From positions 310,001 through 374,000 of the forward strand of contig NZ_JAGSPJ010000002.1 of NCBI RefSeq assembly GCF_018139545.1: a DNA stretch of 64,000 nucleotides, in the 5' to 3' direction. Under the pieces are notes generated by a model. The model was not told the origin of the DNA, did no database searches, and was given only the letters and a program-made list of their open reading frames with translations. The DNA is from Affinundibacterium fentianense. GTDB lineage: Bacteria; Pseudomonadota; Gammaproteobacteria; Burkholderiales; Burkholderiaceae_D. This document shows, piece by piece, positions 1 through 13,747 of this stretch; the stretch's first letter is position 1; every line of letters starts with the position of its first letter. The position numbers and the translations under genes are program-made.

Positions 1-671
1 CACAAAGTAAATGCAATCCCCGCACTTACAAAAACTAAAAACATCGCGATACGTAAAGGTGCGCCAGACAAGAGTGGTACGTTCGCAATACCTTGCGCCA
101 ACGCCACACCAAACGGATTCATCCAAGATGTGCCAAATCCAATTTGGCTCGCAACGTAGGTAATCATCACACCAACTTCAGGTGGGTATCCAAGCCGTAA
201 AATCAGTGGCAATAACAAAGCTAGAAAAGCAATCGTTTCCTCCCCCATTCCGAATACGGCGCCACCGGCAGCAAAAGCAGCAAATAAGGTCCCCAGTAGC
301 AAACGTGGATGATTTCCTGTGATCACCATTAAACGTAGCAAGCCACGATCAACAGCTCCGGTCGCATTGATCACGCCAAATGCACCACCGACTAACAGAA
401 TAAATGCAATTACTCCAATCGCAGAGCCGCTTCTACTACCTGAGGTCATACCTTCAAAAGGCGCATTTAAAAAACCAATCTCTTTACCACTAGCAAACAT
501 GGAAATACTGATATTGTGTTCCGCAACTCGAAAAGACTGAAGCGAAATTGGCAAACCCTTTTCAAAGTATCCAGCGGATACCCATGGCACCACTATGGCA
601 ATCAACAAGGCTGCAAAGAGCAAGATGATTAGGGTATTCGGAACTTTAAATCTGCTACGCTGATCACTCAT
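1..671 (-). CDS. YfcC-family permease, C-terminal part outside the window
   Basis: The gene starts at the ATG at 671 and runs off the left edge, so only about the first 223 residues are visible. They show a short cytoplasmic N-terminus, a first membrane segment at about residues 12-32, and several later hydrophobic helices. The motif FGMGEETIAF, followed by a segment rich in L, and the later GTSWMNPFG resemble the YfcC / C4-dicarboxylate-uptake-C superfamily, whose members are inner-membrane carriers often linked to basic amino acids or peptides. It follows the TonB receptor gene on the same strand but is separated from it by a strong terminator, so it probably has its own promoter. In this neighbourhood it could import arginine, ornithine or the Asp-Arg dipeptide; this is inference from context. 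An AbgT- or NhaC-like assignment is the main alternative. Confidence 0.7.
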   Translation of the reverse strand, partial: MSDQRSRFKVPNTLIILLFAALLIAIVVPWVSAGYFEKGLPISLQSFRVAEHNISISMFASGKEIGFLNAPFEGMTSGSRSGSAIGVIAFILLVGGAFGVINATGAVDRGLLRLMVITGNHPRLLLGTLFAAFAAGGAVFGMGEETIAFLALLLPLILRLGYPPEVGVMITYVASQIGFGTSWMNPFGVALAQGIANVPLLSGAPLRIAMFLVFVSAGIAFTL

Positions 672-712
672 CGGGACCGGTCCTATGTTTAGTTATGATC
701 ATTTCCTCGTAT

Positions 713-735
713 AAAAAAACCCCACCTAGGTGGGG
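713..735 (-). terminator. Rho-independent terminator of the TonB receptor gene
   Basis: A perfect palindrome CCCCACCTAGGTGGGG at 720-735 is followed, reading on the minus strand, by seven T residues. It lies just downstream of the TonB-dependent receptor stop and upstream of the YfcC permease start. Confidence 0.85.
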
Positions 736-764
736 CGCTGAGGGGCTTTGGGGGGCGATTCAGC

Positions 765-3521
765 TTAATTGAATTTATACTGCAAATTCACAAAGATAGA
801 GCGTCCACGTGGATCACCGTAGGTTGGATCCCAAGTCACTTCGAAATAGCGAGATTGATTTGTAAATGGTGGTGCTTTATCCAAAATATTGATGACACCT
901 GCGCGCAACTTCAAGTTTTTAGTGAACGCATAACTGCCTGTCAAATCCCAAAGAGAATAGGCTTCAACATCACGATCATTCCAACCTGGGTCGGCTAAGC
1001 CTGGAATATTTTGATCACGATAACCGGCAAAATAGGTGTTCCCTAAGGTCAAGTTGAGTGGACCATGCGCCCAATCAAGATTGAGCTTATGACGCCATCT
1101 TTGTACGGCTTTGTCATCACGAAACACACCTAAACCATTTGTCAGTGGTGAATTTGGATCGGATTGGAATTTATACTCAGTCAAATACGTTGCGCCAATA
1201 TTTGCACTAAAGCGCCCAATCGAAGTCGCATCACCGCGCCAATTCAGCGCCAGATCAAACCCAGAAGTATTTAGCTTGCCACGATTTTCTTTTTTAAACT
1301 GCAAATAAGAAACGAAGCCGTCAGAATCGCGCACGACAATATTTGGATTATTGTAATAAACCGGATTATCAAAAACAGTTTGCTCGCCAATTTCCGAAAT
1401 AATATCCGTCTTACGAATCATCCAGTAATCAATACTTCCATTCCAATTTTGATTGGGTTCTAGCACCAAACCGAGTGAGAATTGCTTCGACTTTTCTGGT
1501 TTCAATAATGGATTAGCATAGCGATCCAAATCAAACTGTGCGATTTCACCGGAGACTGGATCTTTCACAAAGCTAGCGATTGTTCCCGATCGTACTGGCA
1601 AAAACATTTCAGAAATCGATGGTGCTCTGAAACCAGTACCAAATGAGGCACGTCCCAACATGGCTTTACTGGGTCGATAACTCAACGCAAACTTAGGATT
1701 CGTGGTGTCTAGATTTTGCGTGGTGACGCCCGATAGAGGATCCTTCACACCTTTATAATGGTCATAACGTACAGCGAATTGTCCTTCCCATTCTTTTGTG
1801 AACGGCGCATTGACCTCTGCATAAAAACCTGCAATATCACGTGAGTTCGACGAATCAGCAAGTAACTCATCAGAACTAGAACGATCACCCTGAACATCGT
1901 TTGTCTTTAGCGCTGGTGTTGAAGAAAACTCGGTTTTTTCACGGCGCATCTCTGCACCAAGCGCCAACATCACATCCCCACCTGCCATAGACATCAACGA
2001 ACGTGTCAACTTGCCGTCGAAACTGTCACTGGTTCCTTTCGCAATACGGGCTGCTCCAGAAATTTTGATCGAGTTCATGAATTTCTTGCCGGAGTCATCC
2101 GTCGGCGCAACGAAGGGGTTATAGAGGCCCTTCGCAATACCATCGAGTAGTTTTGAGCGAGAAACCCATCCGTCGATATCCAAATCGGTCGCTTCATTAA
2201 CGCTATGGTTATATGCCGTATCATATTCCCAACTTCCCAAGCGTCCGTTTGCACCCAATACAAGACGCGAGCTTTCGCTCGTGACTTCTGTAGTGCGGCG
2301 ACCGGCGTCGGTTAAACGAAAGCGGAAATTGACTGGCGTTGTAATACCTGTTTTTGTCTGCAAATCCTTCGGCAAGTAAATTCCCGTGGTCGTTCCATTA
2401 ATACTTCCAGAAGTAGCAGGTGATGCGGCATATGCAGTGACGGCTTTCGACTGTAAAGCCTCAAAGAAAACTTGGTGTTCATCAGAAACTAAGAATGTCG
2501 CCCGCCCGATGAAACTTTGCTTCTCAGACTTTGGATAGACCTCCGAATCGCCCATATAGTTGAATGAACATCCTTCTGTTCCGCCTGGTCCTAAAGGCCG
2601 AACGACATTTGGGCTACCATTCACGCATGACGCTTTACCTAGGCTCACACGGCGACCTGGTGAAGGTAACCATGTTCCACCTGGCCCCGATCCAAATAAA
2701 TACGAAGAACTATTTAATGTGGCTAGTTGAGCTGAAGTCAAATCCACATTCGCGGGAAAGGATGTGCTCGACAATTGCGGCGATAAACGGTCTGGCAAAC
2801 TATATTCCTGCATAAATTTGCGTTCCGAGCTGGCTAATCGTTCCATCCTTTGTACATCCAGCGCGCCGAACACATTGAATCGATCTTTGCCCAAATCACC
2901 AAAGCCGCCTGAAATCGATGCTGTCTTCTTACCACCGCCGCCTTCGCTGGTTTTTAATGCATAGACGTTGATATCGCCACCTTGATAATCTTTACGGGTA
3001 ATGAAGTTAATCACACCACCCATTGCATCAGTACCATAAATTGCCGATGCGCCGTCCTTCAAGACTTCGACTCGTTGAATCGCACCAGCAGGAATGCTGT
3101 TTAGGTCGACGCCTGAGTTATCACCAGGACTCGCAAAGTTTGCGAGCCGACGACCGTTCAGGAGAACTAAGGTACTAGACACACCGAGTCCACGCAGATT
3201 GGCGCCGTTAAAACCACGTTGCCCCCCCATCACATCACTAACACTTACACCATCTGTCAAGCCACCAACATTCGATGAAATTTTTTGCAATAATTCTGCC
3301 GCAGTTGTGACACCAGTTTTGTCGATATCTTCACGTTTAATGATTTCCACAGCCAACGCAGTTTCACCTTCAATACGTTTAATGCTGGAGCCTGTGACTT
3401 CGACACGCTGCAAAGTTTGCGCAGTGACATTCAAACTCAGGGCACTCAGTGCAAACAACACTGCATGAGTGCAACGGGAGCGGCGGAACACGATCGCCTT
3501 GGGCTTGCTAGCTTGTTTCAT
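765..3521 (-). CDS. TonB-dependent outer membrane receptor, candidate cyanophycin or peptide importer
   Basis: This 918-residue protein begins with a basic region and a hydrophobic stretch ending in NVTAQ, consistent with a signal peptide cleaved at about residue 34. The plug domain follows at about 35-170 (LQRVEVTGSSIKR, then VLLNGRRLANF and VEVLKDGASAIYGTDAMGG). The rest has the aromatic-rich strands of a 22-stranded barrel and ends in NLQYKFN, a typical terminal aromatic signature. Such receptors take up substrates too large for porins using energy from TonB-ExbBD. It is transcribed divergently from an exported cyanophycinase, and the shared 295 bp spacer holds ArgR-type operators, so uptake of cyanophycin fragments or beta-Asp-Arg peptides is a reasonable inference. 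The substrate cannot be read from sequence; siderophores are a fallback, although no iron-related genes are adjacent. Confidence 0.92.
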   Translation of the reverse strand: MKQASKPKAIVFRRSRCTHAVLFALSALSLNVTAQTLQRVEVTGSSIKRIEGETALAVEIIKREDIDKTGVTTAAELLQKISSNVGGLTDGVSVSDVMGGQRGFNGANLRGLGVSSTLVLLNGRRLANFASPGDNSGVDLNSIPAGAIQRVEVLKDGASAIYGTDAMGGVINFITRKDYQGGDINVYALKTSEGGGGKKTASISGGFGDLGKDRFNVFGALDVQRMERLASSERKFMQEYSLPDRLSPQLSSTSFPANVDLTSAQLATLNSSSYLFGSGPGGTWLPSPGRRVSLGKASCVNGSPNVVRPLGPGGTEGCSFNYMGDSEVYPKSEKQSFIGRATFLVSDEHQVFFEALQSKAVTAYAASPATSGSINGTTTGIYLPKDLQTKTGITTPVNFRFRLTDAGRRTTEVTSESSRLVLGANGRLGSWEYDTAYNHSVNEATDLDIDGWVSRSKLLDGIAKGLYNPFVAPTDDSGKKFMNSIKISGAARIAKGTSDSFDGKLTRSLMSMAGGDVMLALGAEMRREKTEFSSTPALKTNDVQGDRSSSDELLADSSNSRDIAGFYAEVNAPFTKEWEGQFAVRYDHYKGVKDPLSGVTTQNLDTTNPKFALSYRPSKAMLGRASFGTGFRAPSISEMFLPVRSGTIASFVKDPVSGEIAQFDLDRYANPLLKPEKSKQFSLGLVLEPNQNWNGSIDYWMIRKTDIISEIGEQTVFDNPVYYNNPNIVVRDSDGFVSYLQFKKENRGKLNTSGFDLALNWRGDATSIGRFSANIGATYLTEYKFQSDPNSPLTNGLGVFRDDKAVQRWRHKLNLDWAHGPLNLTLGNTYFAGYRDQNIPGLADPGWNDRDVEAYSLWDLTGSYAFTKNLKLRAGVINILDKAPPFTNQSRYFEVTWDPTYGDPRGRSIFVNLQYKFN

Positions 3522-3701
3522 GCGATAAATCCTTATAAAAGTTGGATCAAATTGAAATTAGCGGCATTCATTCTTAGTGTGAATGCTGGTATTACAGTAT
3601 GTATTCAAATCACTGCACCTTCTTGTTGGCGCTCCTGCATTAAATGGAACGCTTTGAGTGTATGCAGTGTTTGTTCAATTGGGCCGTCTGATCCGACTTG
3701 G

Positions 3702-3743
3702 CGTCGCGCCCTGTGAAACCCGTGTCGCATCCATGCAATGTTA
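3702..3743 (+). promoter_or_regulatory. Tandem ArgR-type operator facing the cyanophycinase gene
   Basis: Two half-sites lie head to tail with an exact 21 bp period: CGTCGC-N8-AA-N5 at 3702-3722 and TGTCGC-N8-AA-N5 at 3723-3743. This is the layout and consensus (TGTCGC-N8-AA-N5, direct repeat) reported for Pseudomonas aeruginosa ArgR. An ArgR of that AraC-type family is encoded downstream at 7675-8685. The operator ends 73 bp before the cyanophycinase start, a suitable place for activation. Binding is inferred. Confidence 0.65.
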
Positions 3744-3760
3744 TTTTGCTTACTTTGTTG

Positions 3761-3802
3761 CAAACTTCCGACAGAGCGACATGCATTTACCAATGTGCGC
3801 AA
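3761..3802 (-). promoter_or_regulatory. Second tandem ArgR-type operator, opposite orientation
   Basis: On the minus strand, TTGCGC-N8-AA-N5 (3802 to 3782) is followed directly by TGTCGC-N8-AA-N5 (3781 to 3761). One half-site matches the ArgR consensus exactly and the other 4 of 6 in its hexamer plus the AA. The orientation faces the TonB receptor gene, but the site lies about 240 bp from that start and close to the cyanophycinase start, so it may instead modulate the latter. Confidence 0.5.
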
Positions 3803-3816
3803 AGTGACGAGGAAGA

Positions 3817-5148
3817 ATGTCAGAAGAAACCAGATTGGTGGCACCATCCACTTCAACAAGTTCTCATGGAAAGGCAAGCATTTTGAAATCTCTTATCTTT
3901 TTTACGCTGCTCGCGACAGCAATGACGAGCATCAACGCGCATGCCGAAAAATCCTCAAACAAAACAGTATTCCAACCCATCGCGGGCATTGTCATACCCA
4001 TGGGTGGTGCTGTGAGAGGGGATAACGATGAGGTGCGTCAACGCGTTGTTGATCTCGCTGGCGGTAAAGGCGCAAAATTTGTCGTGATCCCCACTTCCTC
4101 AGGTAATCCCGTTGCATCAGGAGAAAATGCCGCACACGAACTCCGACGTCGTGGCGCACAAGTTGAAATATTAAAGATTGCTCCGCAGTGGCCCGGGGAG
4201 AATCTAGAGTCCGCGAAGCGTGCGGCCGCTGATCCGGAAAATGTTGCGAAAATCCAAGCTGCCAATGGCGTGTATTTTACTGGGGGTGCGCAAGAACGCT
4301 ATGCTGATGTACTCAACCCCAAAGGCGTTGCCTCACCTGTTCTGCAAGCTGTAAGAGAGTTACAAGCACGTGGTGGGGTAATTGCTGGCACAAGCGCTGG
4401 TGCTGCAATCATGAGTCATGTCATGTTTCGTGACGCACTCAATCCGCTTTTGGTAATGAAAGGTCTGCTCAGAGAAGGCAAAGAAATCGAACGAGGACTG
4501 GGTTTCGCTGGAGAGGAAATTTTTATCGATCAGCACTTTCTGAAACGGGGCAGAATCGGCCGTCTACTCTCTGCGATGCTCGCCAAAGGTTATAAAATTG
4601 GATTGGGTATCGACGAAAATACTGCGGCCGTAATTCGAGGTGCCGATGTTGAAATCGTCGGCGCGACTGGCGCGCTCTTGATCGATCTACGTAATGCAAC
4701 AATACACGCTGGACCGGTCAACGTCAGCAATATTCGTATTTCTTATTTAGACAATGGCGACCATTATGATTTGGAAAAAGGACAGGCACGTGTATTTCAA
4801 GAGAAACTCGGCAAAGGTGAGCTTAAGTTTAGACAACCTGACTTTATTCCGGAATTAGAAAACCCACGTCGTGATTTCCCCGATATTTTAGGTGAAAATG
4901 CAATTCAACGAGCCTTATCACAATTGGTCGATGGAAATCGTGAGTATGTCACCGGTTTCGCCTTCAGCGTTCTCACTGCCAAAGACGATCCCGCACCAAA
5001 TCTAGGGTTTGAATTCGTATTGCGTCGAGACGAACACACTCGAGCCTGGGAAAGCACGGGAATCGATGGGAAAGACTATTCTGTGTTTGATGCAAGACTT
5101 GACGTCCGCCCAATCCGGATGACCGTCCCACTCTTTAAGCCTTGGTAA
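3817..5148 (+). CDS. Exported cyanophycinase (peptidase family S51)
   Basis: Cyanophycinase cleaves the poly-Asp backbone of cyanophycin to release beta-Asp-Arg dipeptides. The 443-residue product has the S51 catalytic set: nucleophile Ser193 in GTSAGA, His240 in IDQHFL and Glu267 in GIDENTA. The His-to-Glu spacing of 27 equals that of Synechocystis CphB as I recall it. The upstream GGAQ motif in YFTGGAQ also fits. A hydrophobic segment at about residues 22-39 after lysines and ending AHA at 41-43 looks like a signal peptide, as in extracellular CphE-type enzymes; the n-region is long, so the true start could be later. GAGG lies just before the chosen ATG. About 110 residues follow the core domain and may form an extra C-terminal domain. 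It is the first gene of a plus-strand operon with the M20 and CphZ genes. Confidence 0.92.
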   Translation: MSEETRLVAPSTSTSSHGKASILKSLIFFTLLATAMTSINAHAEKSSNKTVFQPIAGIVIPMGGAVRGDNDEVRQRVVDLAGGKGAKFVVIPTSSGNPVASGENAAHELRRRGAQVEILKIAPQWPGENLESAKRAAADPENVAKIQAANGVYFTGGAQERYADVLNPKGVASPVLQAVRELQARGGVIAGTSAGAAIMSHVMFRDALNPLLVMKGLLREGKEIERGLGFAGEEIFIDQHFLKRGRIGRLLSAMLAKGYKIGLGIDENTAAVIRGADVEIVGATGALLIDLRNATIHAGPVNVSNIRISYLDNGDHYDLEKGQARVFQEKLGKGELKFRQPDFIPELENPRRDFPDILGENAIQRALSQLVDGNREYVTGFAFSVLTAKDDPAPNLGFEFVLRRDEHTRAWESTGIDGKDYSVFDARLDVRPIRMTVPLFKPW

Positions 5149-6485
5149 TGATTATGCGAAACATTTTCGATCGAGGACTACTCATTTTCTGCGTTGGCGT
5201 TTGCACATTCAGCGCAGAAGTACCTGCCCAACAGGCGTCATTTGACCATGCAAAGCTAGATGCATCGGCCGCACAAACTTTGCCTGATGTCGTGAAGTGG
5301 CGGCGCGATTTACATGCCCATCCAGAATTGGCTTTTCAAGAACAACGTACCTCAGATTTCGTGGCAAGAGAATTACGTGGCATGGGATATGAAGTTCAGC
5401 GCGGGATTGCGGGAACCGGTGTTGTGGGAATTCTTAACAGTGGACGACCCGGTCCAGTCGTTGCCTTGCGTGCAGATATGGACGGCTTACCAGTGCTTGA
5501 ACAAACTGGGCTTTCCTTCGCATCCAAACAACGTATCAAACAACAGGCCAAAAATGGACAGATCGATCTTCCTCTAATGCATGCCTGTGGTCATGATATG
5601 CATGTAGCGATGTTACTCGGTGCAGCGAGGGTTCTCGCTGAGGTGCGAGGACAACTTTCAGGATCGGTGAAATTGGTGTTTCAGCCAGCCGAGGAAGGTG
5701 TCGCAAACGAGCCAAATGGCGCAGAAAGAATGGTGAAGGCGGGTGTGCTTGAGAATCCGAAAGTTGATGCGATGTTTGGTTTACACGTGGGGATCACACC
5801 GCAAGCGACAGGAACAATTTCGCTCAAATCAAGAGGGCTGATGGCGTCAAGCGATACTTTTGATATTTTGGTTAAAGGACGTCAAACCCACGGAGCCTTG
5901 CCATGGAATGGTGTCGACCCTATTGTAATCGCAGCGCAAATCGTTTCGGGCTTACAAACAATCGTCAGCAGGCAAACGAACTTAAGTTTAGCGCCAGCCG
6001 TGATAACCGTTGGCACAATACAAGGTGGACAGCGAGCAAACATTATTCCAAGTGAAGTGCATATGAGCGGCACCATTCGCAGTTTTGAACCTAATATGCG
6101 CAAACAAATTCTCACACAAGTGCAACGTACAGCCGAGCATCTGGCTTCCGCTTCCGGCGCTATTGCTGAGATCCAATTTGATGCGGGTTATCCGGTTACT
6201 TGGAATGATCCTGCGCTTACTGAGAAAATGTTACCTAGCTTGCGACGTGTAGTAGGAAGTGCCTTACTCACTGATATTCCAGTAACGACAACGTCAGAAG
6301 ACTTCTCCTATTTCGGGCAGCAAGTCCCCAGTCTACTTTTTTTTCTGGGTGTCAAACCACCAGCCACTGCAGACGCAGACTGGGCGCCAAACCACTCGCC
6401 TCAATTCAACCCTGATGAAGACGCCCTCCTTACTGGCGTCCGCGCACTTGCTAGCCTCGCAGTCGATTTTTTGACTCGAAACTGA
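5148..6485 (+). CDS. Exported M20 amidohydrolase (hippurate hydrolase-like)
   Basis: The start is taken as the ATG at 5148 that overlaps the cyanophycinase stop (TAATG); an in-frame ATG at 5154 is an alternative. The product of about 445 residues has a hydrophobic N-terminal segment ending EVPAQQ, so it is probably exported. Metal-binding motifs of the M20D group are present: ADMDGLP, MHACGHDMH with Cys147 and His149, FQPAEEG, and a late NHSPQFN. The central dimerisation domain is also visible (SDTFDILVKGRQTHGALPW). The family hydrolyses N-acyl amino acids and amino acid conjugates in a metal-dependent way. Lying between cyanophycinase and CphZ, it may act on cyanophycin-derived or N-acylated peptides in the periplasm. 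Its substrate is unknown and this role is inferred only from the operon. Confidence 0.88.
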   Translation: MIMRNIFDRGLLIFCVGVCTFSAEVPAQQASFDHAKLDASAAQTLPDVVKWRRDLHAHPELAFQEQRTSDFVARELRGMGYEVQRGIAGTGVVGILNSGRPGPVVALRADMDGLPVLEQTGLSFASKQRIKQQAKNGQIDLPLMHACGHDMHVAMLLGAARVLAEVRGQLSGSVKLVFQPAEEGVANEPNGAERMVKAGVLENPKVDAMFGLHVGITPQATGTISLKSRGLMASSDTFDILVKGRQTHGALPWNGVDPIVIAAQIVSGLQTIVSRQTNLSLAPAVITVGTIQGGQRANIIPSEVHMSGTIRSFEPNMRKQILTQVQRTAEHLASASGAIAEIQFDAGYPVTWNDPALTEKMLPSLRRVVGSALLTDIPVTTTSEDFSYFGQQVPSLLFFLGVKPPATADADWAPNHSPQFNPDEDALLTGVRALASLAVDFLTRN

Positions 6486-6493
6486 AAGATCCC

Positions 6494-7612
6494 ATGGAAC
6501 AGACCACAATTACGCTCCCTTCTCCTTCGATCGGTACAACACGCTTTTTACCATTCATTCGGTTTGGCAAACCGGGAACAGGGCCCAAGGCATATATTCA
6601 AGCATCGTTACATGCAGACGAGCTCCCCGGCATGCTTGTTGCACATCATCTGCGAGAGCAACTTGCACACATTGAACAGCAAGGGCTTTTACTCGGCGAG
6701 GTGATTTTGGTACCCGCAGCCAATCCGATCGGCCTTGCACAAACCTTGCTAGGCAGTAGTCAAGGACGCTTTGATCTCCGTACTGGACAAAATTTTAATC
6801 GACTCTTTCATAATCTTTCAGAGATGGTTTTCTCAAGAGTGAAATCACAGCTCTGCGCTGACCCACTGATCAATCAGACACGAATCCGTGCAGCAATTCG
6901 TCAATGCTTGGCGGAACAAACAGTTCATGATGAATTGTCTGCTCAACGTTTGGCCTTAATGCGCCTTGCCGCAGATGCCGACGTCGTTATCGATCTCCAT
7001 TGCGACTGTGAATCAGTTTTACACATTTACACTGGCACACCTTTATGGGAACGCGCTGCGCCGCTTGCCGGCTTACTAGATGCAAAAGTCGCATTGCTTG
7101 AGACCAACTCCGGAGATGACCCTTTCGATGAAGCCTGTTCTCGGATATGGTGGGATCTTGCGAAACTGGTCGACAATCAATTCCCCATCCCTTTAGCATG
7201 TCTCGCGGTGACAGTTGAACTTCGTGGTTTCTCGGATGTGAATCACGTCATGGCTGAAGAGGATGCGACAGCGATCCTCGATTTCCTACGTTTGCAAGGG
7301 ATTATCGCAGGCCCATTATCGCGAGCCGTGCCACTTCCCTGTGATCCAACTCCGCTGGCTGGTTGCATTCCACTGACGGCGCCAACATCTGGACTTGTTG
7401 TCTATCTGCGAGAATTAGGGGAGACTGTAAAAGCTGGTGAACCACTCATAGATTTAATCGACCCAGTAAGCGGCCAAGTACGACAATTGCTAGCACCTGT
7501 GGATGGCATTTACTTTGCAAGAGAAAATCGACGCTACGTGCCACCAGGAACGCGTTTGAGCAAGGTCGCAGGAAAAGAGGCTTTGCGATATGGCTCATTA
7601 CTGTCCGCGTAG
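6494..7612 (+). CDS. cphZ: Zinc-dependent cyanophycin dipeptide hydrolase, AotO/CphZ-like
   Basis: The 372-residue protein belongs to the succinylglutamate desuccinylase/aspartoacylase fold. Zinc ligands are His40 and Glu43 in ASLHADE and His169 in IDLHCDCE; Glu242 in TVELRG is the probable general base. The C-terminal part (about 290-370) carries a biotinyl-lipoyl-like beta region (PTSGLVVYLRELGETVKAGEP), which AotO-type members also have. CphZ, including AotO from the Pseudomonas aot operon, is known to split beta-Asp-Arg to Asp and Arg. There is no signal peptide, so it should be cytoplasmic. It starts 8 bp after the M20 stop and is followed by an ArgR gene, as in aotJQMOP-argR. AstE or another aspartoacylase is the alternative, but the context favours CphZ. 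Confidence 0.82.
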   Translation: MEQTTITLPSPSIGTTRFLPFIRFGKPGTGPKAYIQASLHADELPGMLVAHHLREQLAHIEQQGLLLGEVILVPAANPIGLAQTLLGSSQGRFDLRTGQNFNRLFHNLSEMVFSRVKSQLCADPLINQTRIRAAIRQCLAEQTVHDELSAQRLALMRLAADADVVIDLHCDCESVLHIYTGTPLWERAAPLAGLLDAKVALLETNSGDDPFDEACSRIWWDLAKLVDNQFPIPLACLAVTVELRGFSDVNHVMAEEDATAILDFLRLQGIIAGPLSRAVPLPCDPTPLAGCIPLTAPTSGLVVYLRELGETVKAGEPLIDLIDPVSGQVRQLLAPVDGIYFARENRRYVPPGTRLSKVAGKEALRYGSLLSA

Positions 7613-7674
7613 ACCACATCTGCGGTTTAATGTCGTTGTAGGATGTAAAATCCAGCTGTTCAATAGAAAATACT

Positions 7675-8685
7675 ATGCCAACGCCCTTTCCTGTCTCGTT
7701 GATTTTGCTTCCCGGATTCTCGCTGTTCGCGCTCGGTGCAGTTCGCAGCGTTTTTACGGCTGCCAACGAGGTAAATGGCGAAGTTCTCTATAAAATCACG
7801 CAATATGCTGTGGAGGGTCCACAAGTTTTAGCGCAATGCGGCATCGCACTGACAGCCGTGCCTCTTGAACAACTCAATCTTCAGCAAAATGGGTTCTTAA
7901 TGATCATTGGAGATGAGCGGGTTGACGAGAGTATTACTGGAATAGTAAGCAAACGCCTTCAATCCCAATTTAATCAAATCTACAATGATAGTGGCTGGAT
8001 AATTGGTGCCTGCGGTGCGGGCTCACAAGTTCTCGCAGAATGTGGATTTCTAGAAGGCTACCGAGCTGCAATCCACTGGCAAATTCTGGCGGACGCCGTG
8101 AAACGCTATCCATCCACGATCTTCACGCCTAGTCTATTTGAGATCGACAGAAATCGCATTTCTGCTGGAGCAGGTGCTGCTGTTCTCGATCTCCTTTTGC
8201 ATTGGCTGGGATTACGACATGGCAGCACTTTTGCGGCGGAAGTCGCCGCAATTTTGGGAGTGGACCGACTGCGTAGTAGCGACGAGCGTCAGCCGGTACC
8301 GGCATCTGCTCAGCCCGCACTCGGATCGGCACGCTTGAAGGAAGCATTAGAATTGATGGCTGCCAATTTGGCAGAACCATTACAAGCTGAAGACATTGCA
8401 CAGTTAGTCGGCGTGTCCCGTAGGCAACTCGAGCGTCTGTTTCGACAGCACCTAGATACTTTTCCATCTCGATACTATCTAGAATTACGACTCAAACACG
8501 CGCGTCGCCAACTGAAACAAACAACGCAATCTATATTGCAAGTTGGTCTTGCTTGTGGCTTTACTTCCGGCCCTCATTTTTCTACAACTTACCGTAACTT
8601 TTTTGGTTACACTCCGCGCGAAGAACGCGCACGCCACACCATGCCGCAAATTCACACCAAGAACTCCGAAGAGGACATCCAATGA
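7675..8685 (+). CDS. argR: Arginine-responsive AraC-family regulator, Pseudomonas ArgR type
   Basis: The 336-residue protein has an N-terminal DJ-1/PfpI (GATase-1-like) domain at about 1-190, with IIGACGAGSQVLAECG in the nucleophile-elbow position. A C-terminal AraC HTH pair follows at about 225-320 (EDIAQLVGVSRRQLERLFRQ, then LACGFTSGPHFSTTYRNFFG). Pseudomonas ArgR has this architecture and length and controls arginine transport and the arginine succinyltransferase pathway. Two tandem operators of its known consensus lie at 3702-3802, before the operon. The gene starts 62 bp after cphZ with a weak ribosome site, and its TGA overlaps the astA start (ATGA), so the two are probably translationally coupled. 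It is unrelated to the E. coli hexameric ArgR. Confidence 0.88.
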   Translation: MPTPFPVSLILLPGFSLFALGAVRSVFTAANEVNGEVLYKITQYAVEGPQVLAQCGIALTAVPLEQLNLQQNGFLMIIGDERVDESITGIVSKRLQSQFNQIYNDSGWIIGACGAGSQVLAECGFLEGYRAAIHWQILADAVKRYPSTIFTPSLFEIDRNRISAGAGAAVLDLLLHWLGLRHGSTFAAEVAAILGVDRLRSSDERQPVPASAQPALGSARLKEALELMAANLAEPLQAEDIAQLVGVSRRQLERLFRQHLDTFPSRYYLELRLKHARRQLKQTTQSILQVGLACGFTSGPHFSTTYRNFFGYTPREERARHTMPQIHTKNSEEDIQ

Positions 8686-9710
8686 ATCATATGGACTATC
8701 TGTTGCGCCCAGCAAATTTAGATGATCTCGACACCATCGAGCGTTTCTCGCAAGCCAGTACCTTCGGCATTCACACCCTCAAGCCTGGTCGTGCTCGCCT
8801 TGCGGAACGACTTGAGCGTTCACTCAAAGCCTTCGCTGGCAATGAACCTGTACGTGGCGATGAAATTTATCACTTTGTGCTAGAGGACTTGCGCGAAAAC
8901 CGAATCGTCGGCACAAGCGGCATCGTGACTAGTGCAGGTGTCAATGGTCGCTTCTACTGCTACCGGAATGAATTTTCCGTGCATGCAAGTGATGAGCTTG
9001 GGATCAGCAATCGAGAACATACCTTACGTCTTTGCGAGGATCTTTCTGGGCATACCTTATTGAGTTCTTTTTACATCGAACCAGAATACGGTAATAGCCT
9101 TGCTCCACAATTGCTCTCACGTGGGCGGCTCATGTTTATACGAAATTTTCCTCATCTTTTCGCACAAAGAATTGGTGCAGAAAATCCCGGCCTATGTGAC
9201 GAAGCTGGGAATAGCCCATTTTGGAATGCACTCGGTGGACGATTTTTGAAAATGCCATTTCCTGAAGCGGAACAACGAACGAGAGGCCGCTCCAAGAGCT
9301 TCATTGCCGAGTTGATGCCACGCTCACCAATTTATGTTTCTCTACTAGCAGAGGACGCACAATGGGCAATGGGACAACTGCATCCGGACGGCGAAGTCCC
9401 TTTCGAAATTTTAGTATCAGAGGGATTTGACGTCGATTCATTCATCGATATTTTTGATGGTGGCCCTATCGCTGAAGCGCGCGTTGCAATGCTAAATACC
9501 GTTGTTTCTGCAATTGATGTCGATTTGCGCACAGCGCCATTGATGGCGGGGGAAACGTGCTTGGTCGCAAACATGGAACGATCAGGATTCTGTGCGACAC
9601 TGGCATTTGGCGAATTTATTGAAAACAATTTTTTACAAATACCGAATGACGCGATCGAACGACTTGGTCTTAGGGCTGGTTTGCGCGCTTGCGCAGTTCG
9701 TATCAAATAG
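8682..9710 (+). CDS. astA: Arginine N-succinyltransferase
   Basis: AstA transfers succinyl from succinyl-CoA to the alpha-amino group of arginine, the first step of the AST catabolic pathway. The 342-residue protein matches the family from end to end. The N-terminus (YLLRPANLDDLDTIERF) is GNAT-like, HTLLSSFYIEPEYGNS resembles an acceptor-side motif, and GRLMFIRNFPHLFAQRI and ENPGLCDEAGNSPFW are strongly family-like. It starts at an ATG overlapping the argR stop by 4 bp. The remaining astBCDE genes are absent from the window, so arginine catabolism must be completed by genes elsewhere. The first gene dedicated to using free arginine thus ends the cyanophycin cluster. Its expression is expected to follow ArgR. 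Confidence 0.93.
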   Translation: MNHMDYLLRPANLDDLDTIERFSQASTFGIHTLKPGRARLAERLERSLKAFAGNEPVRGDEIYHFVLEDLRENRIVGTSGIVTSAGVNGRFYCYRNEFSVHASDELGISNREHTLRLCEDLSGHTLLSSFYIEPEYGNSLAPQLLSRGRLMFIRNFPHLFAQRIGAENPGLCDEAGNSPFWNALGGRFLKMPFPEAEQRTRGRSKSFIAELMPRSPIYVSLLAEDAQWAMGQLHPDGEVPFEILVSEGFDVDSFIDIFDGGPIAEARVAMLNTVVSAIDVDLRTAPLMAGETCLVANMERSGFCATLAFGEFIENNFLQIPNDAIERLGLRAGLRACAVRIK

Positions 9711-9768
9711 CCACTCCTAAATTGAATAGGATTTCTTAGCAGATTGAATTCAGCCTGCATCGCCGTCT

Positions 9769-9787
9769 ATCGTTTCAAACGATTTTT
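9769..9787 (+). terminator. Possible weak terminator after astA
   Basis: A small hairpin (ATCGTTT with AAACGAT) is followed by a short T run. The stem is AT-rich and short, so termination strength is doubtful. Confidence 0.35.
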
Positions 9788-9865
9788 GAATATTGGCCAT
9801 ACATTGTGTGCAATCACTTTTTGAGTGCAATATCAATGGTGTCCGACCATGCGCTCACATCAAAC

Positions 9866-9899
9866 AAAAAAAAGCTCCTACAATTTCTTGTAAGAGCTT
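9866..9899 (-). terminator. Rho-independent terminator downstream of the tRNA
   Basis: On the minus strand a stem with arms AAGCTC and GAGCTT, extended by TACA/TGTA pairing, runs directly into about eight T residues. It lies about 21 bp after the tRNA 3' end. Confidence 0.75.
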
Positions 9900-9920
9900 G
9901 ATTTCAAAATACATAAATTT

Positions 9921-9998
<78 letters not shown>

Positions 9999-10147
9999 TA
10001 ATTTGCTTGGCATCCACTGCCTAGCAAAAAGAGGGCTAATTGTATTACATACGACACTCTCAACACAAGGCTTCGCGTCTCGAAATGCTTGATTTGATGC
10101 GGCATTTCAGCCGAAACGCTCAAATTTTCAAAACCACATAGGGAAAA

Positions 10148-10180
10148 TAAAAAACCGCACGATTTTTACTTCGTGCGGCT
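10148..10180 (-). terminator. Rho-independent terminator of rpoD
   Basis: Stem CCGCACGA / TCGTGCGG with an eight-base loop, followed on the minus strand by a run of T residues. It lies about 45 bp after the rpoD stop and closes the rpsU-to-rpoD block. Confidence 0.88.
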
Positions 10181-10224
10181 CTTTCTTTACATGGCATGAT
10201 GTTTTAAGTTAGCTTCGAACTGAC

Positions 10225-13200
10225 TTAATTTCCTTCTAAGAAGCTCTTCAATTTATCAGAGCGTGATGGGTGACGTAGCTTACGTAAAGCCTTTGCCTCT
10301 ATTTGACGAATCCTCTCACGTGTCACATCAAATTGCTTACCAACTTCTTCCAAAGTGTGGTCTGTCGACATTTCGACACCAAACCGCATACGCAAAACTT
10401 TCGCTTCACGTGGAGTCAAAGAATCTAGTACGTCTTTCACTACATTCCGCATGGATGCATGCAGAGCAGCATCCGACGGAGCCAATGTGTGGTTATCCTC
10501 GATAAAGTCACCCAAGTGAGAATCATCGTCATCACCAATCGGTGTTTCCATGGAAATCGGTTCTTTCGCGATCTTCATGATTTTCCGAATCTTATCTTCT
10601 GGCATTTCCATTTTGATGGCCAGCGTCGCTGGATCTGGCTCGGCCCCGGTTTCCTGCAAAATTTGACGAGAAATACGATTCATTTTGTTGATTGTTTCAA
10701 TCATATGCACGGGAATACGAATCGTACGGGCTTGATCCGCGATGGAACGCGTAATCGCTTGGCGAATCCACCAGGTTGCGTATGTTGAGAATTTATATCC
10801 ACGACGATATTCAAACTTATCGACAGCCTTCATCAACCCAATATTTCCTTCTTGAATCAAATCCAAGAATTGCAAACCGCGATTCGTGTATTTTTTCGCG
10901 ATAGAAATGACCAGACGCAAATTTGCCTCTGTCATTTCACGTTTTGCTTTGCGCGCCTTCATTTCACCCGCAGACATCTTCTTATTAATGCCACGTAAAT
11001 CAGGTAATGGCAAAACAACACGTGCTTGCAAATCAATCAGTTTTTGTTGCAACTGTTGAACCGTCGGAACATTTCTTCCCAAGACAGCGCTGTACGAATG
11101 TCCAGCATTCACTTCACCATCGATCCAAGCCAAATTAGTTTCATTGCCAGGAAAAACTTTAATGAAATGTGAGCGTGGCATACCACACCGATTAACTACC
11201 ACGTCTAAAATTTGTTTCTCAACATGACGCACTTCATCAACTTGACCACGCAAAGTATCGCAGAGCTTCTCTACCACTTTGGCGGTAAATCGAATACCAA
11301 GCAATTCATTTGATATTGCTTCTTGAGCCTTAATATAGTTCTTTGAGTTATAGCCTTCTTTTTCAAAGGCTTTACGCATTTTGTCGAAATTTTCCGAGAT
11401 CGTTGCAAATTTTGCGAGTGAATCGCGTTTAAGCTGTTCCAGTTGTTCAGCAGAGATCCCAGCAGCAACAGCCGCAGTATCTTCTTCTTCCTCTTCCTCT
11501 TCGTCGTCTTCCTCTTCGTCCTCTTCGTCCTCGTCACTTTCCGCGACTACGACCGGTGCTTTTTCTTCCTCGGTCTCGGCATTCGGATCGACTAAGCCAT
11601 CGACCATATCGTCAACTTTGATCTCATCGCTCGCAATACGCTCTGCTTGCGCAAGAATTTCTGCAATTGTTGTCGGACACGCAGAAATCGCTTGAATCAT
11701 GTCCTTCAGACCTTCTTCAATTTTCTTCGCAATAACGATCTCACCTTCACGCGTGAGCAATTCGACTGTTCCCATCTCTCGCATATACATACGAACAGGA
11801 TCTGTCGTTCGACCGAAATCAGAATCTACCGTCGACAAGGCCGCCTCAGCGGCAGCCTCGACTTCATCATCATCACTCGCAACAGTAACAACATTATCGG
11901 ACAGCAGCAAAGCTTCCGCGTCAGGAGCCTGCTCATAAACGGCCACCCCCATATCGTTGAAGGTACTGATAATGCCTTCAATCGCTTCTGGATCGACTAC
12001 ATTCTCTGGTAAATGATCATTAATTTCTGCAAAAGTTAGGTAACCACGATCTTTACCCATCTTGATCAGAGTTTTCAAGCGCTGACGGCGGCGCTCCAAT
12101 TCCTCCGCAGTTGCCTCAGGATCAGCAGAGAATGCGTCTTTCAAGAGCGCTTTTTCTTTCGCTTTGCGATCTTTTGCCTTCGCTTTATCCAAGGCTTTCA
12201 TCTCTGCGCGCTCAACTGCGTTTAGCGCTGCCATTTCTTCGTTTTCTGGCTGATATTCTTTAGGCTTACGGCCACGACGACCGGGCACTTTCACGCCTGG
12301 CAATACATAACTAGACGTATCAATACTTGCCAGCAAGGCGGCATCCGTTGTCTGACTCACAGTCGGCGCAGAACCCGTCTTTATTTCTTGTACTTCTGGT
12401 GCTTTTTCAGATTTGGCAGCCCTCGTCGATTTTCTTGCTGGTTTGATTTCTTCTTTTTCAGCTAAATCTGACGTATCGGCTTTAATACTGGCGTTCGATG
12501 CTTTTGTAATCACAGAGGCTTTCTTTGTTGCGGCTGGCGGTGTATCAATTGACGTAACAGGTTTACTTGCAACTTTATCGACTTGCTTACTCAACTTTGG
12601 TTCCGCTTGAGGTTCATTTTTTGTCGCACGTGGTTTTGGCACTTCAACTTCCTTTTTACTGACCGACGATTTTAAATCTTTACTAGAAATCTTGCTCTCA
12701 GCCAATTTTACTGGCTTCTGTTCTACTTTAGGCGGTTTAACGTCTTTCGCAAGGACTTTTTTTGCAGCAACTTTTGACTGACTCGCCAAACTCGTTTCTG
12801 ATTTTGATTTCAATGGCAACGGCTTCTTAGAATTCAATGGCGTTTTCGCGGTCAAGTTTGGCTTAGCTACCGATTTCTGAGGTGTTGACTTCACTTTTGC
12901 AGTGACCTTAGATGCCACATTGGGAACCGACTTTCCTATATTCTTTGGAGTGGACTTTACAGTTGACTTTACAGTTTTCGCAGCCGCTTTTGTTGGAGTT
13001 GGCTTAGCACTCACTTTCGCAAGAGCCTGCGCTCCTGACTTTGTCGGAGATTTCACTGCAGTCTTGATGGACGGCTTAGAAACACTCTTAGAGCCACTCT
13101 TCGTGCTCGGTTTAACGCTTGGCTTAGATACAGCTTTTGTTGAGACCTTAGTTGCAGTCTTCGTTGATTTTGTTCCAAGCTTAGTGGAAGGCGCCGTTAT

Positions 13201-13353
13201 CGCCTTTGTCGAAGACTTTGCAACGACCTTGGCACTTGTTTTATCAGTCGATTTACCTACTGCCTTTGCTGGTATTTTGGGGGCCGTTTTTGTCGAACTC
13301 TTTGTCACTACGGAAGTCAGTTTTTTCGCGGGTTTCTTCATTGCACTAGCCAT
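10225..13353 (-). CDS. rpoD: RNA polymerase primary sigma factor with a giant lysine-rich N-terminal extension
   Basis: The C-terminal part is a canonical housekeeping sigma-70: region 1.1 from about residue 422 ([15 protein letters not shown]), region 1.2 [16 protein letters not shown], region 2.4 [20 protein letters not shown], and region 4.2 ending EERIRQIE-like ([16 protein letters not shown]). The start is set to the ATG at 13353 ([11 protein letters not shown]), because the longer frame would begin with TTG and lacks a ribosome site, giving about 1042 residues against 613 in E. coli. About 330 residues at the N-terminus are Lys, Ser, Thr, Ala and Pro repeats like histone H1 tails. A second odd element is a run of about 24 almost all Asp/Glu residues at about 604-627, in the non-conserved region between 1.2 and 2.1. 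It is the last gene of the rpsU-yqeY-dnaG-rpoD block. Confidence 0.97.
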
Positions 13354-13747
13354 TGAAACAAACCATCCGAAGCGGCAGGGCAAAGTCAAATGAATCGGAT
13401 TCGAACACCTCAATACGCGTCACCGCGCAGTTGGGGTCTCCACCATTCAAACTTAACTTTTCTGAGCGTCGGTGTTTTGGGTTACTCGGAGGAGCATATG
13501 CTCACCTAAACAACACATTCTTATGATGAACAGCCTTTGCCAATGTGACTGTAAAAAAAGAATGAAAACAACCTAAGACCTTGAATCGAAAGCCTTTAAT
13601 TATATCACTTGCCACTCTTTTACTCAATGCAGAGGTCAAACATACCACCCAAAGAGTTTATTTTCCGTAAAGCAATTTAATTCATCATTCATTGCAATTT
13701 GAATATCTTTTATTTGAAATGATTATCCAGCTTTTGCGAAATTCAAA
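13354..13747. other. Intergenic spacer between dnaG and rpoD
   Basis: About 390 bp without a convincing gene. It is AT-rich near dnaG and holds a short GC-richer patch with partial inverted repeats near 13440-13505. Its length suggests that rpoD has its own promoter here, as is usual within macromolecular synthesis operons, but I could not assign clear -35 and -10 boxes. The TTG-initiated N-terminal extension of rpoD into this spacer is not credible. Confidence 0.5.

Follow-up and report, generated by a model that had tools for sequence, protein, structure and literature searches.

A probable ArgR-controlled cyanophycin-utilisation locus with a dedicated outer-membrane receptor in Affinundibacterium fentianense

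Organisation of the locus

The stretch of DNA analysed here, called the window, is a 64-kb piece (C50:310001-374000) of the genome of the freshwater bacterium Affinundibacterium fentianense, which measures 4.23 Mb and is 99.4% complete. Positions 1-9710 of the window carry seven genes, each of which matches its family: a YfcC-type permease, a TonB-dependent receptor, an S51 cyanophycinase, an M20 amidohydrolase, CphZ, an AraC-type ArgR and an AstA homologue. A preliminary description of this DNA had named the same seven genes, and all were found where it had placed them. Cyanophycin is an arginine-rich nitrogen reserve of cyanobacteria and of some other microbes, and these genes probably belong to a locus for its utilisation, controlled by ArgR and equipped with an outer-membrane receptor of its own. 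Family assignments are based throughout on sequence (profile searches, PDB sequence matches and alignments). The features are as follows.

1-671 (open reading frame 3-671), minus strand: N-terminal part of the YfcC-type permease (PF03606, NF008611), cut by the window edge
L003:17253-18671: whole gene of the YfcC-type permease, which extends outside the window
L003:16082-17242: NSAR/OSBS-family enzyme, 10 bp downstream of YfcC, outside the window
765-3521, minus strand: TonB-dependent receptor (PF07715 and PF00593, Plug and barrel domains)
3702-3717, plus strand: imperfect ArgR half-site, agreeing at 7 of the 9 fixed positions (read by eye)
3723-3738, plus strand: exact ArgR box TGTCGCN6GNAA, kept in the alignment of Undibacterium relatives
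3766-3781, minus strand: exact ArgR box TGTCGCN6GNAA, kept in the same alignment
3817-5148, plus strand: putatively exported S51 cyanophycinase of the CphE type, 443 residues (TIGR02069, alignment, PDB matches)
5142-6485, plus strand: putatively exported M20 amidohydrolase (TIGR01891-type), a presumed accessory
6494-7612, plus strand: CphZ, predicted beta-Asp-Arg dipeptide hydrolase (PF24827; best structure 8ein)
7675-8685, plus strand: AraC-family regulator of the ArgR type (neighbours as in aot/aru-like loci; boxes upstream of S51)
8682-9710, plus strand: AstA/AOST-alpha homologue (TIGR03243)

Two divergent gene rows are separated by a gap of 295 bp (3522-3816). On the minus strand the receptor gene is followed by those of the permease and the NSAR-like enzyme, with gaps of 93 and 10 bp. 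On the plus strand S51, M20, CphZ, ArgR and AstA succeed each other with an overlap of 7 bp, gaps of 8 and 62 bp and an overlap of 4 bp. Judging from this spacing, each row may be transcribed as a single unit, and the receptor and the permease, given the 93-bp gap, probably share one operon. A scan of positions 3400-10300 for promoter and terminator patterns gave no excess over shuffled sequences (7 against 7.0; 7 against 7.8). The preliminary description mentioned neither the ArgR boxes nor the NSAR-like gene and the second locus presented below, the last two of which lie beyond the piece that it covered.

The putatively exported cyanophycinase

The S51 protein scores 145.8 bits with the equivalog model TIGR02069 (cut-off 126.6) and matches the solved cyanophycinases 7uqv, 3en0 and 7uqw of the PDB. 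The Ser193/His240/Glu267 triad, which the preliminary description had called intact, is present and is invariant across 12 aligned exported-type S51 proteins, that of the window included. The pocket of CphB consists of Gln101, Asp172, Gln173, Arg178, Arg180 and Arg183 (PMC3235067). All six residues are kept in the S51 protein (Q159, D238, Q239, R244, R246 and R249), and the last five are spaced as in CphB.

The length of the protein is close to that of the secreted CphE enzymes, unlike that of the 27-kDa intracellular CphB. It begins with a hydrophobic segment which is Sec-type by eye; a crude hydropathy test was passed by 108 of 125 exported-type S51 reading frames, a count for which the control on intracellular types was not valid. 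We infer that the enzyme works in the periplasm or outside the cell.

The CphE enzymes of P. alcaligenes DIP1 and P. anguilliseptica BI, compared here by their description and not by their sequence, resemble the window's protein in size class (the CphEal gene has 1260 bp, for 443 residues here), in the N-terminal export signal (a putative one here, seen by eye), in the S/H/E triad and in the pocket residues (PMC3235067). At the position of Gln239, where the window's protein agrees with CphB, CphEal has a threonine (PMC3235067). The genomic setting is also different: the S51 gene of the window belongs to two probable divergent operons which also contain the genes of a TonB receptor, CphZ and ArgR.

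Conservation of the gene set

A survey of 399 genomes of the order found a TIGR02069 match in 71, over the cut-off in 30. Neighbours were examined for the long-frame S51 matches, in 32 loci (30 taken by place, L043-L072, and the two of this genome), from which 11 were dropped (five without an S51 frame passing the match rules, six with less than 35% identity to the references). Of the 21 loci kept, 20 have 5-kb flanks on both sides. The receptor lies within 2 kb of S51 in 14 of these, and CphZ within 10 kb in 14. A neighbourhood search for receptor, S51 and CphZ across Burkholderiales had been suggested in the preliminary description, and all three occur together in 13 of the 20 loci. Five of these 13 also have YfcC and eight have AotJQMP genes, but none has both. 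Among the other loci, one has only the receptor, one has only CphZ, and in five S51 is alone. Two short-frame S51 matches of the intracellular type (L074 and L075) lie beside CphA.

In the genus Undibacterium, in which the present genome is counted here, an exported-type S51 over the cut-off is found in 25 of 43 genomes. The 39 matches gave 33 loci for examination (six under the cut-off were left out). Three of these were removed because their identity was too low. Full flanks are available for 25 of the remaining 30: 22 contain the receptor, CphZ and YfcC, one CphZ and YfcC, one CphZ, and one none of them. A wider scan of contigs was restricted to the best 80 of 475 relatives, which favours near relatives. 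After removal of four duplicates, 60 of 76 loci have full flanks, and in this set the receptor is present in 45, CphZ in 29 and both in 24. CphZ occurs without the receptor in five of the 60, and the receptor with Aot genes in one. Two of the 60 have YfcC together with weak Aot-like matches (24-36% identity, other strand), which are taken for unrelated ABC genes. At the level of the phylum, a TIGR02069 match was found in 48 of 397 genomes, over the cut-off in 15.

The named hosts of the unit, or of most of it, among the matches listed include Undibacterium, Pseudoduganella, Massilia, Niveibacterium, Aquabacterium, Roseateles, Ideonella, Rubrivivax and Inhella, to which the same matches add one Rhodocyclaceae and one Steroidobacteraceae metagenome-assembled genome. 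Within Undibacterium, U. macrobrachii (L136) has this locus too. The recurrence of the set across Burkholderiales indicates that the grouping is not due to chance. Its composition varies: a locus of Massilia (L141) has S51, M20, ArgR and AstA, with no CphZ within its stretch. In L044, L045 and L048, from the same family, an exported-type S51 without a receptor lies beside parC-like and, in some, argH-like reading frames (by eye), and in L044 it adjoins CphZ. In L145, L146, L152, L174 and L175 a tandem of receptor-S51 receptor-S51 precedes CphZ, YfcC and ArgR, and the receptor-cyanophycinase pair looks duplicated.

The TonB-dependent receptor

The receptor was also used as the only query, in 294 genomes of the family. 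Matches were found in 99, and the loci of the 30 top matches, one of them the window's, were examined. The preliminary description would have taken it as a refutation if homologues of the receptor were always found beside unrelated substrates; in 29 of these 30 loci an S51 gene lies at most 1.5 kb from the receptor. A FastTree tree was built from 63 chosen rows (51 linked to S51 and 12 unlinked, L265 being counted as unlinked), of which the clustering of labels was used and not the branching order, with one very long branch (L072). On this tree the linkage label changes 4 times, against 11.2 in shuffles, and none of 500 shuffles is as low. The link between receptor and cyanophycinase thus holds for the near clade and does not extend to the family at large. 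The host genome has an unlinked receptor of its own (L246:8982-12922, C56:116135), with 45-48% identity, beside a Cupin_8 gene; the receptors of this sub-clade are located away from cyanophycinases.

The preliminary description has the dipeptide enter by the receptor; oligomers are an equally possible cargo. In one arrangement, reminiscent of the selfish uptake by SusC/D, the receptor would import oligomers into the periplasm, where S51 and M20 would finish them. We regard this as a real possibility, somewhat short of an even one. The dipeptide, with a mass of 289 Da (calculated by hand), could pass through porins, and a TonB-dependent receptor fits larger cargo better. Moreover, the N-termini of S51 and M20 are both Sec-type by eye, and no partner accompanies S51 more constantly than the receptor (45 of 60 loci, from the best 80 of 475). 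On the other hand, the characterised CphE enzymes work in the medium, and the polymer is termed insoluble (PMC3235067). Inspection of some of the loci by eye revealed no SusD-like protein, although no search aimed at SusD was made.

CphZ and the permease

The CphZ protein scores 258 bits with 8ein, compared to 127 with 3fmc and 100 with 3lwu. We take 8ein and 8eip to be the CphZ structures of Sharon et al. 2023. The two differ by one Glu-to-Ala change in the aligned stretch, and the window's protein has Glu there. The protein contains the motifs HADE (at 40), DLHC (at 167) and TVELR (at 240), which are also present in the CphZ of the second locus and presumably correspond to the zinc HxxE motif, the distal histidine and the glutamate which differs between 8ein and 8eip.

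The part of the permease inside the window matches PF03606 (YfcC/DcuC), and the label "basic amino acid antiporter" given to YfcC is a putative one. We know of no tested function for carriers of this type. AotJQMP, together with AotO/CphZ, reportedly allows P. aeruginosa to use beta-Asp-Arg. Since YfcC replaces AotJQMP beside CphZ and S51, the YfcC clade is predicted to import beta-Asp-Arg or its products.

To our knowledge, no cyanophycin role has been attributed to M20 or NSAR-like enzymes. The S51 family, for its part, includes PepE and MccG, which have other substrates (PMC9239234). It could be imagined from this that the locus serves another isoaspartyl or arginine-rich peptide and that cyanophycin is incidental. 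This is very unlikely: the S51 protein passes the cyanophycinase equivalog cut-off and keeps the pocket residues, its partner matches CphZ best, and ArgR boxes lie upstream.

Regulation

The ArgR box of Pseudomonas is TGTCGCN6GNAA, with tandem repeats 5 bp apart (PMC10963909). Both exact boxes of the window fall in the gap between the receptor and S51. The half-site at 3702-3717 lies exactly 5 bp before the box at 3723-3738, which matches the tandem spacing given in PMC10963909.

The region of 570 bp around the S51 start was then compared in 125 loci. An exact box is present in 22 of the 40 loci with an ArgR gene, in none of the 23 with an RpiR gene and in one of the 62 with neither, while the rest of the loci predicts 0.004-0.012 boxes per region. 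With the looser pattern TGTCGCN8AA the counts become 25 of 40, 0 of 23 and 1 of 62. The box-positive loci span seven named genera (Undibacterium, Pseudoduganella, Massilia, Roseateles, Ideonella, Rubrivivax and Inhella).

Arginine breakdown and accessory enzymes

The AstA homologue scores 315 bits with TIGR03243, over the cut-off of the AOST subfamily (284.35), and stays below the cut-offs of the AstA and AOST-alpha equivalogs. It is the sole PF04958 match in the genome, and homologues accompany ArgR in many surveyed loci. According to the preliminary description, AstA starts arginine degradation. This does not hold for the genome: no PF04996 match (AstB) was found in the 99.4%-complete sequence, and the best TIGR03240 match (AstD) of the whole genome reaches 237.8 bits, with none over the cut-off of 579.3. 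AstA as the first step of a working AST pathway was consequently rejected, and the protein is unlikely to lead into a succinyl pathway in this bacterium. The genome does have an arginase (286.4 bits, cut-off 227.6). The lack of AstB and AstD together with the presence of this arginase suggests that arginine probably leaves by arginase and not by the AST pathway.

The M20 protein is over the cut-off of TIGR01891, with 342 bits. Its nearest PDB proteins are YxeP and IAA-amino-acid hydrolases, and its N-terminus is Sec-type by eye. The gene is found in seven of the 30 Undibacterium loci of the genus survey and in L140 (Pseudoduganella) and L141 (Massilia); among all the surveyed loci it is confined to locus A of Undibacterium, L140 and L141. 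The NSAR-like gene occurs in six of the 30 genus loci and in L140; the seventh locus with M20 (L119) is cut by the contig end. The NSAR-like protein scores 303 bits with TIGR01928 (cut-off 200.65) and 297 bits with its best structure, 2zc8. It contains the KLK, DAN, EQP, DES and IKQ motifs of the enolase superfamily, which we take to be catalytic. It resembles in this the NSAR/OSBS enzymes, such as 2zc8 and other structures that carry the label N-acylamino acid racemase, and differs from them in its setting, beside the genes of YfcC and a TonB receptor. Both the NSAR-like enzyme and M20 appear to be accessories of one branch.

Two other assignments of the NSAR-like gene were considered. A dipeptide epimerase was rejected as first choice, the best matches being NSAR/OSBS enzymes. 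MenC, of menaquinone synthesis, was likewise not retained as first choice, the menD scores in the genome being 66.7 and 55.3 bits for a cut-off of 244.2.

N-succinyltransferase, racemase and desuccinylase form a three-enzyme pathway from D- to L-amino acids. AstA, the NSAR-like enzyme and M20 could be such a conversion module which merely shares the locus. All three families are present, the absence of AstB leaves AstA without its classical next step, and the low menD scores make it unlikely that the NSAR/OSBS-family gene is MenC. The proposal is nonetheless improbable, because the signal peptide of M20 (by eye) would keep it from a cytoplasmic N-succinyl product, and many loci have AstA but neither NSAR nor M20. 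A literature search found no paper that pairs NSAR with a succinyltransferase.

Since the beta-aspartyl group is an amino-succinyl group, beta-Asp-Arg closely resembles N-succinyl-arginine in structure and could be accepted by enzymes that act on N-succinyl or N-acyl arginine. As a conjecture, which we think unlikely, the NSAR-like protein would be the first enolase-superfamily epimerase for beta-aspartyl dipeptides. It would convert beta-Asp-D-Arg, or other units with the wrong configuration that occur in aged or non-standard cyanophycin, to the L form, making them open to cleavage by CphZ. Outside the cytoplasm, N-acyl-arginine bonds of this kind would be trimmed by the exported M20, and the YfcC-type carriers would be beta-Asp-Arg importers.

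A second locus in the genome

The genome contains a second locus (L004, C45:711500-731000), in which the genes of a second YfcC and a second CphZ are divergent from those of an RpiR-type regulator, a second receptor and a second S51 protein.

L004:2550-10946 (C45:714049-722445): RpiR-type cyanophycinase locus with YfcC2, CphZ2, RpiR, TBDR2 (the receptor) and S51_2

The identity between the two loci is 34% for YfcC, 47% for CphZ, 38% for the receptor and 35% for S51. The same four partners are thus grouped twice, in another arrangement and with another regulator. A further locus (L113:8900-9573, in genome G411) has the arrangement of the second locus with no recognised receptor between RpiR and S51, possibly as the result of a loss.

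Surroundings of the locus

Downstream of the AstA homologue lie a tRNA-Met gene and an rpoD-like reading frame (named by eye; window positions 10225-13413, minus strand). The latter has 1062 residues from its listed start, with a very long and repetitive N-terminal extension rich in Lys, Ala and Thr. Upstream of the window on C50, L003:59-10443 resembles a gene cluster for a peptide natural product whose precursor contains several cores. By eye, it contains a cysteine-rich repeat protein with many "TTTQTCCP"-like units (L003:5903-6700), which is accompanied by a LanC-like protein, a phosphotransferase-like protein and two kinase-TPR proteins.

Proposed function

The preliminary description had proposed a locus for the degradation and uptake of extracellular cyanophycin. 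This proposal is supported by the tie between the receptor and S51 (29 of 30), by the best match of CphZ to 8EIN/8EIP and by the ArgR boxes in the gap. In the mechanism that we favour, the exported S51 enzyme, of the CphE type, would degrade cyanophycin to beta-Asp-Arg on the outer side of the inner membrane. Material derived from cyanophycin, either oligomers or the dipeptide, would pass the outer membrane through the dedicated receptor, and the YfcC-type permease, in place of AotJQMP, would carry beta-Asp-Arg across the inner membrane. CphZ would then split beta-Asp-Arg into Asp and Arg, the latter probably leaving via arginase. An ArgR of the Pseudomonas kind, presumably responding to arginine, would switch on the divergent operons (receptor-YfcC-NSAR and S51-M20-CphZ-ArgR-AstA) from the boxes between them.

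Several observations weigh against this interpretation. The number of boxes in the 64 kb is unremarkable (2 for 0.72 expected, and 18 of 100 shuffles reach 2): what is remarkable is their placement, not their number. The exact box is not present in 18 of the 40 ArgR loci, and the surveyed loci share descent, so that their counts are not independent trials. The best NCBIfam model of the regulator is GbdR (252 bits, cut-off 480), and the protein is called ArgR because of its neighbours and the boxes. The permease reaches 478.8 bits with NF008611/PRK11588, just below the equivalog cut-off of 500, and that of the second locus 390.4 bits; as both are below the cut-off, they seem best termed YfcC-type. 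In the wider scan (best 80 of 475), the receptor is the only partner of S51 in 20 of 60 loci, and S51 is alone in 10 of 60. The exception among the 30 best receptor matches, L228, has no S51 in the 19.9 kb around the receptor. Of 20 receptors chosen at 45-51% identity, nine lie beside S51 and 11 do not, which indicates other uses in the receptor family at large. Among the 11 are L265, with CphZ, YfcC and RpiR alongside on a contig that ends right after the receptor, and this genome's own receptor beside Cupin_8. Finally, the genome itself encodes CphA (975.3 bits, cut-off 850), and the neighbouring gene, which is shorter, is CphA-like.

C45:675998-680787 (L073): CphA and its shorter CphA-like neighbour, some 33 kb away from the second locus

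A third CphA-like protein (C62:135149-137494, L037) has a frame of 881 residues and 626 bits, below the cut-off of 850; in the search of the genus, a third CphA match at E 1e-150 or better exists in this genome only. The polymer need not be foreign, since CphA is encoded in the genome. The view of the preliminary description, according to which it is made by other organisms, is thus too narrow, and the cell's own polymer or that of its siblings is a possible source.

It may be asked, then, whether the locus recycles own or sibling cyanophycin released by lysis, with the same machinery and an internal source. CphA over the cut-off is present in 39 of 43 Undibacterium genomes, and the search of this genome gave no short cyanophycinase of the intracellular type, its only two TIGR02069 matches being of the long exported type. 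These two facts agree with such recycling. However, exported-type S51 over the cut-off is found in just 25 of the 43 genomes, although CphA is nearly universal. Moreover, three nearly complete genomes with CphA (G204, G234 and G321) have no TIGR02069 match at all, which means that their own turnover is independent of the locus. In the genus, turnover of the own polymer does not, therefore, depend on the locus everywhere. The TonB receptor and the signal peptides (by eye) also point outward. Recycling as the role of the locus is a minority possibility, and we consider it rather unlikely.

Comparison with known systems

Sharon et al. 2023 (PNAS) are reported to have identified AotO as CphZ in the aotJQMOP-argR / aru system of P. 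aeruginosa. This system shares CphZ, ArgR and AstA-type genes with the window, and some of the related loci have four Aot-type ABC-transporter genes. The window differs from it by the addition of a TonB receptor and a cyanophycinase, by YfcC instead of the ABC transporter, and by the fact that AstB and AstD were not found in this genome.

Cyanophycinase genes cluster with those of isoaspartyl dipeptidases, and a "cyanophycin utilization locus" with a transporter has been described in strain L21-Spi-D4 (Ben Hania et al., as cited in PMC10206079). Like the window, it combines a cyanophycinase, an isoaspartyl dipeptidase and a transporter for scavenging, but its dipeptidase is IadA, whereas the window has CphZ, a TonB receptor, ArgR control and YfcC (PMC10206079).

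In Citromicrobium sp. JLT1363, a TonB-dependent receptor gene lies close to a cyanophycinase gene, and cyanophycin was proposed as the substrate from this context (Tang et al. 2012, PMC3400609). The likeness to the window is the receptor beside the cyanophycinase; the Citromicrobium case is a single example, and the available part of the paper mentions no CphZ, ArgR boxes or reciprocal test (PMC3400609). The preliminary description knew of no described unit that pairs a TonB receptor with a secreted cyanophycinase and an M20 enzyme; as to the receptor near a cyanophycinase gene, it has to be corrected in view of this genome-context report of 2012 (PMC3400609). The present unit is not described in the literature found for cyanophycinase with TonB-dependent, CphZ, extracellular cyanophycinase and cyanophycin utilization, a search outside which most subscription papers lie and whose papers were seen in part. 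A full-text search found no paper that combines cyanophycin with Undibacterium.

If the interpretation is correct, cyanophycin would be a dedicated meal for many Burkholderiales, received through an outer-membrane receptor in the way that polysaccharides are. Substrates would be assigned to a clade of TonB receptors and to YfcC-type carriers, and the ArgR regulon would extend to an exogenous polymer. The flow of nitrogen from cyanobacteria to heterotrophs would then become testable gene by gene.

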